Source: Candidatus Hydrogenedentota bacterium
Lineage (GTDB): Bacteria; Hydrogenedentota; Hydrogenedentia; Hydrogenedentales; SLHB01
DNA: 47,316 nucleotides
Direction: 5' to 3'
Assembly: GCA_029552745.1 (NCBI GenBank)
Contig: JAKPDK010000118.1
Span: 1 to 47,316 of the forward strand
Shown here: in pieces, positions 17,948 to 24,397 of the stretch
Position numbering within the stretch: position 1 is the first letter of the stretch
Layout of the letters: the number at the start of each line of letters is the position of its first letter
Program-made: the position numbers and the translations under genes
Notes under the pieces: model-generated
What the model saw: only the letters and a program-made list of their open reading frames with translations
What the model was told of the DNA's origin: nothing
The model's database searches: none

Positions 17948-18904
17948 ATGGCAACGAATCTGATTACCACGCTCAAAGGCTCTTTGTTAGAAAACTACTT
18001 CCCAACCGGCTGGGACTTGGAAGCGCTGGACCGAATCTGTTCCAGACCACCGGAAAGCATCACTCACCGTGAGAAATGGTGGAACAAACGATTTGAACCG
18101 ATCCCCTGTGAAACACTGGCCGATTTTGACATGATGCTGGGACATGAGATCGCTATAGAGATCTCTCGGGCGAAACATCAAAAAAAGCAAATTATTTTCA
18201 TCTTGCCGGTTGGTCCCATGGGCATGTATCGCTGGGCAGTGTATTTCTTGAAGGAATGGAACATTTCCTGTTCTCATGTCCACGGGTTCAACATGGACGA
18301 ATGGAGTGACGCGGCAGGCAATACGCTACCCCCCAAAGACCCCGGTGCCTTCCAAAATGCCATGGAGCAAGCGTTTTACGGTCCTTTGGGCAAACTTACC
18401 GTTCCGAAAGCCCAGCGACATTTCGCCACAAAAACCGCCTTACCGAAGTACGGGGAACAAATTCGAGCCTTGAAGAAAAAAGGAGCCAGATTGGTCACGG
18501 TATTCGGTATCGGCAGAGCGTGCCACATCGCATTTTGGGAACCTCATTTCGCAGCTGAGTTTCGCAGCCTCGCCGAATGGAAATCTCAAGAATACCGTCT
18601 GGGCGCCTTGCTTCACCCCATGACCATCGAGCAAAACGCGATAACCAGTTTCAAGAGCCGCACCACACTCGTTCCGACACGGGCCAACACCATAGGACCA
18701 GGCCTTTTCTTACAATCCGACCGAATTATCGGCGGCGCCGACGGGGCGTTGGGCAGAGGGATGATGTGGCAGGGCATGTCGCTTTGGGCAACGCTTCATC
18801 ACGCCCCCACCCCGTGGATCCCAAGCACGTTTATGCCGACATTGCCCGGGCGCTTGTTCTTCTTAAAAGAGTTGGCTGGACCCTTAGTAGCCGAGTGCAA
18901 TTGA
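17948..18904 (+). CDS. NagB-like (glucosamine-6-phosphate deaminase family) protein, catalytic Asp missing
   Basis: NagB/RpiA/CoA-transferase fold, 318 residues, somewhat longer than NagB (about 266). FNMDEW at 114-119 matches the NagB FNMDEY motif, which carries part of the active site, and [13 protein letters not shown] at 187-199 aligns with GIGxDGHIAFNEP. In that motif the Asp of the Asp-His-Glu triad is Ala (A191) and the next Gly is Cys (C192), while H193 and E198 remain. A changed reaction or substrate is therefore likely and I do not assign deaminase activity. ATG 17948 has GGGAGGA upstream. It follows pap by 124 bases in the same direction and ends at a strong terminator. Confidence 0.75.
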
Positions 18905-18930: not shown

Positions 18931-18961
18931 CCCCCGTTACACGACGGGGGTTTTCTTTTTT
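18931..18961 (+). terminator. Rho-independent terminator after the NagB-like gene
   Basis: CCCCCGT (18931-18937) and ACGGGGG (18944-18950) pair around TACACG, followed by a T-rich run that touches the stop codon of the opposing gene. Read on the minus strand it has no equal U run, so it mainly serves the plus strand. Confidence 0.92.
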
Positions 18962-19961
18962 ACGCATTGCCGTAAATCCTCTGTACCACAGCAAGCGCCC
19001 TTTCGTGAAGAATTCCGTTGGAAGCCAATATACCTACATTGTTGTTTAGGCGACGCCCCGCGGAAAAGTCTAGCGGCCGACCGTAAAGGTCCGTGATTCG
19101 CCCGCCGGCTTCTTCTACAACTAACGCCCCAGCTGCTTGATCCCAGATGCATTCGCGGTAATTCGGTTGTTGACGAGAAGGCAGCCGAAATAACAGTTCT
19201 GCATGACCCGATGCCAATACGACATATTTTGATTGACTGTCCATGCAGATGGGAGGCAAGGTCACATCCAACGCTCGCAGAAGTTCCTCGAATTTTTCCT
19301 CGTTCGTGTGGCTTGATTCTACGGAACGTAATACACGTGCTTCACGCTCAACAGAACAAGAGGAAACTCTGAGAGCTGATCTCGCGGAACTGTCACTAAG
19401 TGGACTGATCCAAGCCCCTGCACCGCGTACAGCAGCAGCGATAGCTCCCTCGCCCGAAACAGCATTTTTGCCATCTGCAGACAATTTGGGACATCCCAGA
19501 ACACCAAGTTGCACGTTCCCGTCTTCCACATATGCCAATGCGATGGCAAAATGGCCGCCTCTCAAGAATCCTTTTGTGCCATCGATTGGATCCAGAACCC
19601 AAAAGCCGCCTTTGGGTTCTCCACCCCCGCGGTCGAGCCAGGCACAAACGGTCTCCGGTGTAGCGTAAGCGGCATATCTTCCAACAAAACGAACCACTTT
19701 ACGCAACACCGCCTCGGACTCTGGCCGCCTCAAGATGGAAGAGTCCTCTTCTGCTACCAACGCGGATTTTGGGAAAGCCCGCTCCAATAAGCAGGAAATC
19801 AGCGCCTGAACAGCGAAGTCCGTCACGGTGACCGGCGACTTGTCCTCTTTGGACAACGAAGTGGAGACCAGTTCCGTCTGAATGTCGCGGGCTAGAAAAA
19901 CTGCTTGTCGCACGGTTTCGATGGCAAAAGGTACATAGGGGTGGTCAAGGTGAATTTGCAT
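18960..19961 (-). CDS. cysQ: 3'(2'),5'-bisphosphate nucleotidase (CysQ/Hal2 type)
   Basis: Inositol-monophosphatase superfamily enzyme, predicted to remove the 3' phosphate from PAP/PAPS-type nucleotides. The 333 residues show the Hal2-like start with KSPVTVTD, AEED (metal-binding glutamates), WVLDPIDGTKGFLRGGHFAIALA, and the C-terminal WDQAAGALVVEEAGG. The insert between the first acidic cluster and DPIDGT is as long as in eukaryotic and planctomycete Hal2 proteins. ATG 19961 follows GAGG; ATG 19973, four codons earlier, is equally possible. Small-molecule inositol phosphate substrates cannot be excluded. Confidence 0.88.
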   Translation of the reverse strand: MQIHLDHPYVPFAIETVRQAVFLARDIQTELVSTSLSKEDKSPVTVTDFAVQALISCLLERAFPKSALVAEEDSSILRRPESEAVLRKVVRFVGRYAAYATPETVCAWLDRGGGEPKGGFWVLDPIDGTKGFLRGGHFAIALAYVEDGNVQLGVLGCPKLSADGKNAVSGEGAIAAAVRGAGAWISPLSDSSARSALRVSSCSVEREARVLRSVESSHTNEEKFEELLRALDVTLPPICMDSQSKYVVLASGHAELLFRLPSRQQPNYRECIWDQAAGALVVEEAGGRITDLYGRPLDFSAGRRLNNNVGILASNGILHERALAVVQRIYGNA

Positions 19962-19991
19962 AAGCGACCTCATGTTTTCTTCGGTTCTGTC

Positions 19992-20020
19992 TTGCTTTTA
20001 GCGTGGCGGTATGGTAGCAT
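19992..20020 (+). promoter_or_regulatory. Candidate sigma-70 promoter for the structured leader
   Basis: TTGCTT at 19992-19997 is followed after exactly 17 bases by TAGCAT at 20015-20020. A transcript starting near 20027 would contain the inverted repeats described next. Confidence 0.45.
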
Positions 20021-20026
20021 GTAATA

Positions 20027-20190
20027 GAAGGAAGTTTCCTATGCGAAATTCGAAGCATAGCTTAAGCCTACTACTCCCACTCCTCCTCGCGGAGGATAGC
20101 AGGCCCGTTATGCCTCGAATTCCATAAGCAAGATAGCCTAAAGGTTTAGATAGAGGCGCCGCGGGCTTCGGCTCGCGGCGCTGTGTTTTT
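20027..20190 (+). ncRNA. Candidate structured leader RNA or small RNA with terminator-like hairpin
   Basis: Three palindromic arms can fold alternatively. CTATGC/GCATAG (20039-20044, 20055-20060) forms one hairpin and TTATG/CATAA (about 20108-20127) another. The same two arms are also complementary to each other (GAATTCG/CGAATTC plus GCATA/TATGC), closing over an inner GCCT/AGGC and a CCTCC-TCGC-GGAGG hairpin. The region ends in an 11-bp stem with a TTCG tetraloop (20156-20181) and a T run at 20186-20190. It fits an attenuator or small RNA, but matches no class I know. It fills most of the 350-base gap before the gene at 20323. Confidence 0.45.
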
Positions 20191-20219
20191 GATCGACTCG
20201 AGAAAGGAGGTGGTGTCGG

Positions 20220-20396
20220 ATGGACACGGGGCTTTTCAGACATATCGTGTCCGCTTGCTCGGCCTTTTGTCGAAATCTCAACGCAAGACGTGAAATGGGA
20301 TCTTTGACAAAGGAGAGCATCCATGGAGAAAAAAGTACGAGTATACGACACTACGATCTCACAGGTTGTCAAACATTTCGAAAGTCCCCTAAATGA
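20220..20396 (+). CDS. Possible leader ORF with a strong ribosome site
   Basis: ATG 20220 lies nine bases after AAAGGAGG (20203-20210), the best ribosome site in this gap, just past the terminator-like hairpin. The frame has 58 codons and runs 74 bases into the next gene in another frame. The peptide has no recognisable domain and includes three Cys. It may act in translational coupling, or the site may be chance. Weak evidence for a real protein. Confidence 0.2.
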   Translation: MDTGLFRHIVSACSAFCRNLNARREMGSLTKESIHGEKSTSIRHYDLTGCQTFRKSPK

Positions 20397-21231
20397 AAAG
20401 GCTTTTGCAGAAGCAATTTCCCTGCTTGCCACTGTCGGCATTGACACTGTAGAAGTCTTTGGGGCGCCAGATTGTCCAAAGCTGTCCACGTTTCGATGGG
20501 CGTATCCTTGTGAACTGGCTCTGCGTACACCATCGGTAGAAGATGCGATACGTGCCGTGGGTGAAACAGCCCGAACGGTCTCGCACGCAGTTATGACCGT
20601 GCAGTTTTCTGCTGATGAAAAATGTTGGAAACGCAGGTTCGGCATAGCGTCACGCGCGGATGCCATCCGCAGCATCAGGAGGAATCTAAGCTTAGCGCGA
20701 AACTACGTGGAAACCGTACAATTTAGCATCGCGAGCAGACAAGATTCCGATCCAATTTTCGTTCGTCAATGTTCGGAAACCGGATTAGAGGCGGGTGCTC
20801 GGCGTATTAGCCTCGTAGATGTGTCCGACGAGAACAGCGATGGAACGCATTTCCTCAATGTGCTGCAAGAAGTACGCCGGTTCTTAGGACAAGACGTTTT
20901 TATCGGGGTTGCTTCGCCGTCTGCGCACACGACAACACAAGCAATTCAATGCAACATTCACCAAATAGAATCGAATGTTTGGCGCCACAATGAACAAAGA
21001 ACGTCAGCAGAGTTGACGGAAGTCGTCAAACATCTTCCTGAAAAAAGTTGCGGACGAATACCGTTCGACATTGCCAAAATTCACTCATTGCAGACAGAGT
21101 TGCTTCGTGTTTTGTCTCCCTTCAACACTAAAATGATGCCATACGCGACTGGCACCGATGGGAACGAAAATGTCTTTCGGAGACTGTTCGCCCCATGTGC
21201 CTCTGAGCTGCACGAAATTCGCTTATTGTAG
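20323..21231 (+). CDS. LeuA/HMGL-like TIM-barrel protein lacking catalytic and metal residues
   Basis: Recognisable relative of 2-isopropylmalate/homocitrate synthases, but only 302 residues (the catalytic barrel, without the regulatory domain). The start VRVYDTTISQ aligns with the family IRIFDTTLRDG motif, so the catalytic Arg and metal Asp become Ser13 and Gln14. VQFSIASRQDSD and GLEAGARRISLVDVS follow the family pattern. The metal-binding HxHND is replaced by VASPS near 196-200. The glycine-rich GERAGN region is NEQRTSAELTEVV. Loss of all key residues suggests a non-catalytic role or another reaction. ATG 20323 has AGGAG seven bases upstream. A structured leader precedes it and a hairpin follows. 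A glycan-type aminotransferase lies downstream, giving no clear pathway. Confidence 0.7.
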   Translation: MEKKVRVYDTTISQVVKHFESPLNEKAFAEAISLLATVGIDTVEVFGAPDCPKLSTFRWAYPCELALRTPSVEDAIRAVGETARTVSHAVMTVQFSADEKCWKRRFGIASRADAIRSIRRNLSLARNYVETVQFSIASRQDSDPIFVRQCSETGLEAGARRISLVDVSDENSDGTHFLNVLQEVRRFLGQDVFIGVASPSAHTTTQAIQCNIHQIESNVWRHNEQRTSAELTEVVKHLPEKSCGRIPFDIAKIHSLQTELLRVLSPFNTKMMPYATGTDGNENVFRRLFAPCASELHEIRLL

Positions 21232-21247
21232 CCCTCTGACCTGTTAA

Positions 21248-21277
21248 TGGGGCGTACTGTTTCGTTGGTACGCCCCA
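21248..21277 (+). terminator. Probable terminator after the LeuA-like gene
   Basis: TGGGGCGTAC (21248-21257) and GTACGCCCCA (21268-21277) form a perfect 10-bp stem. Only a weak T-rich stretch (TGCTTTCGTT) follows, so termination strength is uncertain. Confidence 0.55.
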
Positions 21278-21290
21278 ATGCTTTCGTTAC

Positions 21291-21344
21291 CCAACACAAC
21301 CACACGTAAGCCCAAGGTTTGAATGTTACGTGGGGTTTTGTTAG
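21291..21344 (+). promoter_or_regulatory. Imperfect 19-bp inverted repeat upstream of the aminotransferase gene
   Basis: The arms 21291-21309 and 21326-21344 pair with three mismatches around a 16-base loop (core CACGTAA/TTACGTG). The right arm contains GGGGTTTTGTT. It may be a second terminator or part of the leader of the gene starting at 21388. Confidence 0.35.
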
Positions 21345-21387
21345 TCTTCCCGTGCATTGATTTTCTTACCTCTTGAGGAGTCTCCAT

Positions 21388-22500
21388 ATGTCCATTCCGC
21401 TTGTGGATTTACGCGCCCAGTATTGCGCGATAAAGAATGAAATTGATCAGGTTGTAGCCGAAATCTTTGAAGAGCAGCGCTTCATTGGGGGACATCACGT
21501 TACCAGTCTCGAACAAGAAATCGCGGCTTATGCAAATGTCAACTACGCCGTAGGTGTTGCATCAGGAACGGATGCACTTCTTCTCACCTTTCGAGCTGCG
21601 GGAATTGGACCCGGCGACGAGGTGATAACATCTCCTTTCACGTTCTTCGCGACAGCCGGTGCCATCGTAAATGTTGGTGCAAAACCGGTATTTGTTGATA
21701 TTGATCCCCGGACGTTTAACATCAATACCGACCTCTTGGAACAAGCCGTGACGCCCCGCACCCGTGCCATTGTTCCGGTCCACCTTTTTGGTCAATGCGC
21801 CGACATGGACGGTGTCTGGCAAGTGGCGCGAAAATACAACCTCATGGTGATCGAAGATGCTGCGCAGTCACTGGGCGCGGCTTTTCATGGACAATGCGCT
21901 GGAACGTTGGGCGACGCGGCGGCGGTCAGTTTTTTCCCGAGCAAAAACTTGGGCGGCGCCGGTGACGGGGGTATGGTGTTGACGAATGATGCAGACCTCG
22001 CTGAAAAAGTGCGCCTCTTGCGTAATCATGGTCAGGATACATCCTACAAACACGTATTCGTAGGAACGAACAGCCGTCTTGATGCCTTACAAGCCGGTGT
22101 ACTCCGCGTGAAACTGAAATATCTTCCGCAATGGACGGAACAAAGACGGAGTCACGCCGCCTATTATACGCAGCATTTCCAGCACATAGAACAAATAAAG
22201 TGCCCCGTAGAACAAGAGAGGACTTACCACGTGTATAACCAGTACACGATTCGAGTTCCTCGCCGGGATGACGCACTCGCACGGTTACGCCAACGGGAAA
22301 TCGGTTGCGCCGTCTATTATCCTATTCCTCTGCATCTACAGCCGTGTTTTCGAGAACTAGGGTATCGAAAAGGAGACTTCCCCGAAGCAGAAAAGGCAAG
22401 CCTCGAAGTATTATCCATCCCGGTCTATCCGGAGCTGCAACGACATCAACAAGACGAAATCATCGAAAACATCCAACAACATCTAACCGATGTAACCTGA
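21388..22500 (+). CDS. DegT/DnrJ/EryC1/StrS family sugar aminotransferase
   Basis: PLP-dependent aminotransferase acting on keto sugars bound to nucleotides, as in biosynthesis of surface amino sugars. The 370-residue protein has the start IPLVDLRAQY typical of the WbpE/FdtB type, ASGTDAL (phosphate-binding), DAAQSLGA with the PLP-contacting Asp157, and the Schiff-base Lys186 in FFPSKNLGGAGDGG. ATG 21388 follows GAGGAG; the TTG five codons upstream overlaps that site and is not used. The secreted barrel protein begins 31 bases downstream, so the two may be cotranscribed. The sugar substrate is not determined by sequence. Confidence 0.93.
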   Translation: MSIPLVDLRAQYCAIKNEIDQVVAEIFEEQRFIGGHHVTSLEQEIAAYANVNYAVGVASGTDALLLTFRAAGIGPGDEVITSPFTFFATAGAIVNVGAKPVFVDIDPRTFNINTDLLEQAVTPRTRAIVPVHLFGQCADMDGVWQVARKYNLMVIEDAAQSLGAAFHGQCAGTLGDAAAVSFFPSKNLGGAGDGGMVLTNDADLAEKVRLLRNHGQDTSYKHVFVGTNSRLDALQAGVLRVKLKYLPQWTEQRRSHAAYYTQHFQHIEQIKCPVEQERTYHVYNQYTIRVPRRDDALARLRQREIGCAVYYPIPLHLQPCFRELGYRKGDFPEAEKASLEVLSIPVYPELQRHQQDEIIENIQQHLTDVT

Positions 22501-22531: not shown

Positions 22532-24397
22532 ATGAAACAAGGTGTTTGTGTTCTGATCCTTTTAGCGCTTGGTGGATGGGGCATACTGCCGTCAGGAGCG
22601 GACGAATTACCAACAGCGACGCCACGCACTGTCCGCCCCCCGGAAAACAACCAGAACATCGAAACAGGACTCTCCTATGGAACAGTTCCTGACTTACCGT
22701 TGCCCAAAACAATTTTGTTCTCTGCCAGTCCTGATGAGATCATCGCCGATGCGGAGGAATGGGCACGCCGCGGGGTCTCTGCCTTCTTCATGGACTATAT
22801 TGCACGGGAATGGTCGACGGACATCTGGGCATGCGACGGTAAGCCTTGGACGATAGGCGAATCAGACGAGTTTTTCCAAAAAGCCAAAAAAGCGAACGAA
22901 ATCTGCAAACGAATCGGCTCCGAAACTTTTCTTAAGATCGCTTTCGACAACTATTTCGAATGGTTCAACGACATCGCATGGCAACATATCAATCACAACT
23001 TTCGTCAGTTCGCCATTTTTGCCCGTGAGACAGGCTGCACAGGAATCGCCTTGGATATTGAATACTGCGGTCAGCAGTATAAATTTGACTGGCAAGGTTA
23101 TGACTATAAGGGGTACACACGTGCTGACCTCGTGAAAAAAGTTCAGGAAAGAATGACCGAGGTCATGCGAATCCTGTACGACGAATTTCCGGATATGGTA
23201 TTCCTTACGTTTCCGGAACAATCCCTCACCCTGGGCATGGTGATTCATTCCGCGTGGCTGGAAGAAGCGGCACGGAGAAACGCCCCGGGCGGTTTCCACT
23301 ATTGCACGGAGGGTACCTATCGCCGTCCCAACATCCGATATATGTTTGCACATGCATGGACGATAAACAATCTGTTCGAACATGTTTTAAGCAAACGCGC
23401 CCTCGCCTATTGGAGAAAACACGGTAGCATTGCCGCAGGAGTCTGGCCCTTCGGGTTTGACTATCAAAATGTGATGGACCCCGGAATGTCATTGGAGCAA
23501 TTCCAACAAGCCTACGCGGCATCACTCATGATGAGCGCTCGCTATAATTGGATCTACAGCCACAACTCTAGGGAACTCCTGATCGGCAGAGCTATCCCAA
23601 ACTATAAAGGAACTGCGGACATTCCCGCCTACTTACGAGTTATCTCCGACCGTCAGGTCGTCACAGATCCGAAGTATGTAGCTATAGCGAAACAGTTGCG
23701 TACCAACTACATAGATGACTTGCGGAACGAACTTGGTTTAGCCCCAATCCCCCAAGTTGCGGCGCCAATGGACTATATTCGATTGGAAGCACTTCCCGCT
23801 GGTACGGCTATTCAAAACCCGAGTTTGCTCAATGGTCTTTGGTCGTTGGGTATTCGCGCGTATAAAGGCGAGACAACTGACCTTCGTCCTCTCCTGCGCA
23901 CTCAAACCGACTGGATGGTGATAGGACCTTTCCCAAGCGATCCTGATTGGGGTGGACACGCCGCAGTATACCCGCCGGAAAAACAGATAAATCTTCAGGA
24001 TACCTATGAGGGCGTCAATGGTCCCGTGAGATGGAAAGAATATAGACGTCCTGCCCCGTTCGTTTCCGTCAATCTCAAGGACGCATTTTCCACCTCTGAC
24101 ATGGTCACAGCGTATGCATTGTGTTTTGTCCGTGCGGATCGCCCCACAAAAGGACAAATTAGAATCTCCACCAACGATATGGGGAAAGCGTGGCTCGGCG
24201 GTAAATTGATTTATGATTATCCTTATGAAGGAAACGCCTACTTAGACCGCGACGTCATTGACGTGATTTTCCCTGCAGAGCCCACTCCGTTGCTTGTTAA
24301 AGTTACCAACGGACTCGCAAATTGGGCGTTTATCTGTAGGTTTACGGACGAAAAGGGATCGCCCTTGGAAGAACTACACGTCAGTCTGAGTCCCTGA
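22532..24397 (+). CDS. Secreted putative glycoside hydrolase (TIM barrel plus sugar-binding-like domain)
   Basis: A 621-residue exported protein with a signal peptide at about 1-23. The N-terminal two thirds looks like a TIM-barrel glycosidase: GVSAFFMDYI near 80-89, FLKIAFDNYFEWFND, GIALDIEYCG near 170-179 (acidic residues possibly catalytic) and MVFLTFPEQS. The last ~170 residues begin DWMVIGPFPSDPDWGG and contain KGQIRISTNDMGKAWLGGKLIYD, a galactose-binding/PA14-like beta-sandwich pattern often found after such barrels. I cannot place it in a numbered GH family. ATG 22532 follows GGGAGGG. It ends 12 bases from the convergent lipase-like gene. Confidence 0.65.
   Translation: MKQGVCVLILLALGGWGILPSGADELPTATPRTVRPPENNQNIETGLSYGTVPDLPLPKTILFSASPDEIIADAEEWARRGVSAFFMDYIAREWSTDIWACDGKPWTIGESDEFFQKAKKANEICKRIGSETFLKIAFDNYFEWFNDIAWQHINHNFRQFAIFARETGCTGIALDIEYCGQQYKFDWQGYDYKGYTRADLVKKVQERMTEVMRILYDEFPDMVFLTFPEQSLTLGMVIHSAWLEEAARRNAPGGFHYCTEGTYRRPNIRYMFAHAWTINNLFEHVLSKRALAYWRKHGSIAAGVWPFGFDYQNVMDPGMSLEQFQQAYAASLMMSARYNWIYSHNSRELLIGRAIPNYKGTADIPAYLRVISDRQVVTDPKYVAIAKQLRTNYIDDLRNELGLAPIPQVAAPMDYIRLEALPAGTAIQNPSLLNGLWSLGIRAYKGETTDLRPLLRTQTDWMVIGPFPSDPDWGGHAAVYPPEKQINLQDTYEGVNGPVRWKEYRRPAPFVSVNLKDAFSTSDMVTAYALCFVRADRPTKGQIRISTNDMGKAWLGGKLIYDYPYEGNAYLDRDVIDVIFPAEPTPLLVKVTNGLANWAFICRFTDEKGSPLEELHVSLSP

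Follow-up and report, generated by a model that had tools for sequence, protein, structure and literature searches.

Ribosome-mediated attenuation in response to leucine is known from the leuL leader of Escherichia coli. It has likewise been described for leuA of Shewanella (PMC2659441), while in actinobacteria the LEU element upstream of leuA forms a pseudoknot between the Leu codons and the leuA Shine-Dalgarno site (PMC1262725). As for the enzyme itself, 2-isopropylmalate synthase (IPMS), the closest described relatives of the protein considered here are canonical LeuA (TIGR00973/PF00682; 3ewb, 3rmj, and Mycobacterium tuberculosis LeuA) and the short forms without a regulatory domain (NF042434, IPMS_Lepto "LeuA2", and NF041069, IPMS_Sufob). 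In the literature, no leucine attenuator was found described for Hydrogenedentota, and nothing relevant was found on pseudoenzyme IPMS or on leucine and isopropylmalate in Hydrogenedentes. Here, a stretch of 47,316 nucleotides from a Candidatus Hydrogenedentota bacterium (as a whole, the window) was analyzed, in which a conserved leader precedes an IPMS-type barrel gene that has lost its active site (Table 1). A preliminary description made from the sequence alone had dealt with the barrel and missed the leader RNA; the regulated LeuA2 locus together with its attenuator is the larger finding of the two.

Table 1. Features of the LeuA2 locus, with coordinates in the window
Feature	Position	Strand	Basis or remark
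Divergent neighbour, 3'(2'),5'-bisphosphate nucleotidase (HAL2 type)	18960..19973	-	Also divergent from LeuA2 in the sister genome G005
Leader-peptide ORF, MRNSKHSLSLLLPLLLAEDSRPVMPRIP followed by a stop; 7 Leu of 28 aa	20041..20127	+	Leu run LLLPLLL after the start codon
Leader hairpin, AAUUCGAAGCAU...AUGCCUCGAAUU, with inner CUCCUCC/GGAGGA stem	20047..20121	+	Covarying; z -6.2
Antiterminator, leader hairpin 3' arm (GGCCCG..GCCUC) with terminator 5' arm (GAGGC..CGGGC)	20102..20167	+	Covariation
Intrinsic terminator of the putative attenuator, GC-rich 12-bp stem and U tail	20155..20190	+	Covariation
Second element, AAAGGAGGTGGTGTC Shine-Dalgarno site, ORF2 (MDTGLF..., starts at 20220, 58 aa) and GGACACG/CGUGUCC hairpin	20203..20396	+	Compared across loci
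Shine-Dalgarno site of the barrel gene, AAAGGAG	20309..20315	+	Sequence and leader alignment
Degenerate LeuA2 (window copy, genome G000), IPMS-type TIM barrel, 302 aa	20323..21231	+	Active site and accessory subdomain lost
Candidate terminator 3' of the barrel gene, inverted repeat GGGGCGTAC...GTACGCCCC	21246..21278	+	Read from sequence; weak partial match only

The leader, which spans 20041–20278 in the window, lies upstream of the window copy and of LeuA2 genes in other genomes, and consists of a leucine-rich leader peptide (across genomes about 25–30 codons, including a Leu-codon run), a hairpin, a competing antiterminator, a terminator and a second short ORF, in this order. In the alignment of the leader structure, 94.3% of the cells were paired and 18 pairs had changes in both partners, a result exceeding each of the 500 shuffles; for the antiterminator, 94.4% were paired, with 5 doubly changed pairs and a covariation score that exceeded all 500 shuffles, so that two mutually exclusive structures, terminator and antiterminator, are both supported by covariation. 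The leader was detected in 32 of the 68 genomes of the phylum, whereas outside Hydrogenedentota nothing was found except one chance match (Streptomyces), and none was found before canonical LeuA in the 26 loci searched. Rfam covariance models gave zero matches at E ≤ 1 across 19900–21500, i.e., this covariation-supported candidate leucine attenuator is absent from Rfam.

Like E. coli leuL and the Shewanella leuA leader, it combines a Leu-rich leader peptide with a terminator and a competing antiterminator upstream of an IPMS gene. Unlike them, it has a different sequence, a long closed hairpin over the entire leader ORF and a further short ORF (MDxGL) behind a very strong Shine-Dalgarno site, and it was found in Hydrogenedentota only; it also differs from the actinobacterial LEU element in having a terminator/antiterminator pair and not the LEU pseudoknot. 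This anatomy points to ribosome-mediated leucine attenuation. When leucyl-tRNA is scarce, the ribosome would stall at the leader peptide's Leu codons, so that the 3' arm of the leader hairpin becomes available to the 5' arm of the terminator; with the antiterminator thus paired, transcription would run on into the barrel gene, and with ample leucine the terminator would form.

In the second element, AAGGAGGTGG is followed across genomes by ATGGAnnnGGGRCT, which encodes MDxGL-type peptides that, depending on the genome, end after 6–9 codons or extend over the LeuA2 start; in the window, ORF2 overlaps the start of the barrel out of frame. The structural signal of the second hairpin is weak in the window alone (z -1.5). 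The Shine-Dalgarno site of this second uORF is near-perfect and the peptide always begins M[DE]x[GE]L; in addition, the Leu-codon run CUCCCACUCCUCC and that Shine-Dalgarno site are in part complementary.

LeuA2 is a second IPMS of Candidatus Hydrogenedentota (378–406 aa), with an intact active site in 16 genomes. The intact proteins share 55–66% identity with the copy of genome G006, show the DGEQ/HCHND-type set in full and are devoid of the LeuA regulatory domain, as are the short IPMS of the same length class. They score 424–456 bits against TIGR00973 over about 380 aa and 228–252 against NF042434, below its cut-off of 500; the window copy scores nothing with the latter model. The window copy is the positional orthologue of LeuA2, since it shares the leader with the group (E 2e-30) and the divergent HAL2 gene with G005. 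In the canonical LeuA tree, the window genome (G000) is sister to G005 (support 88/96), whose LeuA2 still has its active-site residues and has lost the accessory domain in frame; between these two genomes identity amounts to 26% for LeuA2 vs. 77% for canonical LeuA and 53% for HAL2. The group-typical F(L/V)RQC...AGA.R segment is present in the window copy (FVRQCSETGLEAGARRISL), and its Q, C, G, A, and R are kept in all aligned degenerate copies. Elsewhere, the window genome encodes a canonical LeuA-type protein (509 aa) and a second family member (540 aa), and a separate canonical LeuA is kept in nearly all of its relatives. No conserved operon partner was found at the LeuA2 locus, where the neighbours vary between genomes with two exceptions, HAL2 in G000/G005 and one group partly common to G002, G014, G017, G018, and G019. 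Two further genes of the window encode a 318-aa glucosamine-6-phosphate deaminase-like protein (17948–18904, +; 45 bits vs. a curated cut-off of 237, without Pfam match) and a 621-aa protein with an N-terminal hydrophobic stretch, without Pfam or NCBIfam match (22532–24397, +).

The barrel ORF begins with ATG and is read through its 302 codons with zero internal stops or frameshifts. It contains the motifs VYDTT, VQFS, AGARRISLVD, and ELTEVV, matches PF00682 (HMGL-like) weakly (20.2 bits, under the 29-bit cut-off), reaches 18–23 bits with NCBIfam IPMS models that have cut-offs of 532 or more, and matches IPMS 3ewb in sequence at E 1e-6; a protein-pattern scan based on this protein found no relatives among GTDB contigs. 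Structure prediction and comparison with IPMS structures, proposed in the preliminary description, gave an AlphaFold2 model (pLDDT 80.6, pTM 0.81; it leans on the intact homologues within its alignment) with a TIM barrel predicted to be complete to about residue 266 and an unreliable tail (268–302). The top 9 Foldseek hits of this model were IPMS/MAM structures (TM 0.72–0.76 by query), the best PDB matches being the isopropylmalate synthases 3ewb (top), 4ov4, and 3rmj. In comparison with canonical LeuA, the window copy thus has the same predicted fold, the same order of elements and residual DTT, VQFS, and AGA.R motifs, but lacks the active-site residues, the accessory subdomain and the regulatory domain, and stays below the curated cut-offs. 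The candidate terminator after the gene suggests that the barrel gene is probably monocistronic.

For the active-site comparison, the window copy was aligned with 14 intact orthologues and inspected at the nine canonical active-site positions of IPMS (M. tuberculosis LeuA numbering). Eight of the nine are replaced or deleted (R80>S, D81>Q, H167>C, E218>A, T254>V, H285>A, H287 deleted, N321>S) and S216 is kept, which confirms the earlier claim of an IPMS-type barrel with key active-site residues replaced: the catalytic Arg-Asp pair and the HxH metal ligands are absent, and the GERAGN loop and the accessory subdomain (HSSGIHQDG...TARSGR) are missing as well. It had also been described as a barrel only, with no regulatory domain. 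That absence is real but ancestral, as the intact orthologues lack the LeuA regulatory domain too, and the loss proper to the window copy is that of the accessory subdomain. A purposeful switch through preferential loss of catalytic residues was considered and rejected, because the loss of catalytic positions proceeded about as fast as that of the remaining invariant ones.

The reading we consider the most probable, with moderate confidence, is that the window copy is an expressed, folded, non-catalytic and lineage-specific descendant of LeuA2 under relaxed selection and leucine attenuation. LeuA2, a second IPMS without allosteric regulatory domain, would sit under the leucine attenuator; after the split from G005, the catalytic residues would have been lost and the accessory subdomain gone missing through in-frame changes only, with catalysis covered meanwhile by canonical LeuA. 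The barrel would probably still be made and folded, under weak purifying selection, and expressed in leucine starvation. Of this, the orthology, the missing active site and the build and covariation of the leader are computational results and the fold is a prediction, whereas expression, the response to leucine and a residual function are inferred. This reading is favoured by the stop-free frame, by shared retained positions and by the dN/dS of a related degenerate pair. When neutral decay to 26% identity was simulated (300 simulations per setting, with indels left out, the inclusion of which would make neutrality less likely), 4–7 stops arose on average and the probability of no stop was 0–1%; the window copy has none and all its alignment gaps are in frame, in agreement with the earlier statement that frame-breaking decay is lacking. 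The invariant positions kept in the window copy match those retained by copies that degenerated independently (Fisher p 0.002–0.014 pairwise), and the combined test without the best-conserved segment gave p 0.005. A dN/dS of 0.37 (95% 0.24–0.56) was obtained for the degenerate pair G002/G019, and not for the window copy, whose synonymous sites are saturated and which has no close relatives. This value lies below every one of the 300 neutral simulations per setting and is relaxed relative to the neighbour control (0.16; p 0.016), so that for this pair the dN/dS, which had been put forward as a check for the family, indicates neither neutrality nor full constraint.

A serious rival, which we consider clearly less probable, is a pseudogene in early decay: LeuA2 would be dispensable, given that canonical LeuA suffices, and the window copy would be drifting without having met a stop or frameshift yet, with the leader lagging behind. 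It is a serious one because the codon usage of the window copy is the weakest among the 16 genes tested (fitting about 0.2–0.3 neutral substitutions per site) and because its own dN/dS is not computable; the relaxation in G002/G019, the unconserved replacement residues and the fact that in other genomes of the phylum this locus has time and again degenerated or been deleted or lost point the same way. Against it stand the improbability of a stop-free in-frame barrel at 26% identity under neutrality, the retained positions common to independent copies, the non-neutral G002/G019 pair and a leader that is intact although the gene has changed heavily.

Across the phylum, the losses are graded. In-frame deletions removed the accessory subdomain in G005 and about 33 aa of the barrel in G017; differently degenerate barrels occur in G000, G014, G002/G019, G004 (with a TAG ahead of its remaining C-terminal part), and G032; relics remain in G031 (about 95 aa) and G040 (just the C-terminal end); and leaders for which no gene was found are present in G001, G008, G027, G052, and as a second copy in G017, while in G049 the contig ends. 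The replaced residues vary from copy to copy among the degenerate barrels, so these look like the products of largely separate events and not like one conserved pseudoenzyme family. Thus, one locus in one phylum runs from the intact enzyme through in-frame domain loss, dead barrel and fragment to the leader only. Such a series amounts to a natural experiment, in which one can follow how an enzyme under regulation turns into a pseudoenzyme or is lost, and ask whether a regulatory RNA can survive the gene it controls. For the short degenerate copies, the annotation "2-isopropylmalate synthase" would be wrong.

The upkeep of the leader was compared with the state of the gene using a model trained solely on leaders of intact genes. 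The window leader, which retains the start codon, the 7 Leu codons, the terminator and the second element, scored 113 bits, inside the 102–125 range of untrained leaders before ORFs, and leaders before degenerate ORFs scored 102–119 bits. Leaders of relic or absent genes (7 genomes and the second G017 copy) scored lower (63–93 bits, with G040 as the exception at 118.5; p about 0.01). Leaders thus seem to be maintained where an ORF is still present, be it intact or degenerate. A more speculative scenario, which we regard as unlikely, is that the attenuator RNA outlives the enzyme, the enzyme either becoming a folded, non-catalytic barrel (perhaps a partner or decoy of canonical LeuA that starvation induces) or vanishing, with the leader working alone. 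It is very improbable that conservation and function lie in the leader RNA or peptide itself, which would work in trans or as a small RNA sensing leucine, with the barrel ORF as a passenger. The gene-less leaders do keep 92.8% of the pairing with 16 doubly changed pairs, and most keep the start codon and Leu codons, so that the conservation of the leader may owe something to a role of its own; however, the alignment was fitted to the model and the double changes may be older than the loss of the gene, the scores are lower with the intact-only model, and in G001 and G008 both the start codon and the terminator are gone, in a fossil-like manner.

The preliminary description left the choice between a pseudoenzyme and a new activity, and named homologues with the usual Arg/Asp/His set as evidence against both; the full set is found in 16 genomes and G005, which counts in part against that proposal. 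The non-catalytic IPMS fold is supported and a pseudoenzyme is plausible, whereas a new activity, in which the altered pocket (Ser13, Gln14, VASPS) would bind and turn over another substrate, deserves little credence: the frame and the predicted fold appear kept and the rate acceleration is strong, but nearly all known metal- and substrate-site ligands are gone, the codon score is low, no gene for a pathway partner shares an operon with it, the residues lost in other lineages are different ones, and Ser13, Gln14, and VASPS, the conservation of which had been suggested as a check, are conserved in no other degenerate copy or relative, leaving this reading without positive support.

Some minor observations concern individual copies. 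Similar short hydrophobic C-terminal tails end the proteins of G011, G013, G014, G002, G019, and the window copy (FEEVMLL, ADMFCL, VEVAFL, VEVATL, VEVAAL, and HEIRLL, respectively), as if the tail had been kept after an internal deletion of the accessory domain; the likeness may be due to chance. The second leader copy in G017 (L121, G017:C35, 2922–3067, -) lies upstream of an unrelated gene starting MVIDSHVHILNADEAHL, and its second Shine-Dalgarno site is damaged. In G031 (L072, 5000–5421, -), an intact leader and terminator are followed by MELGLV with a stop, and then by the fragment of about 95 aa, which keeps the LeuA2 FLRQC segment.
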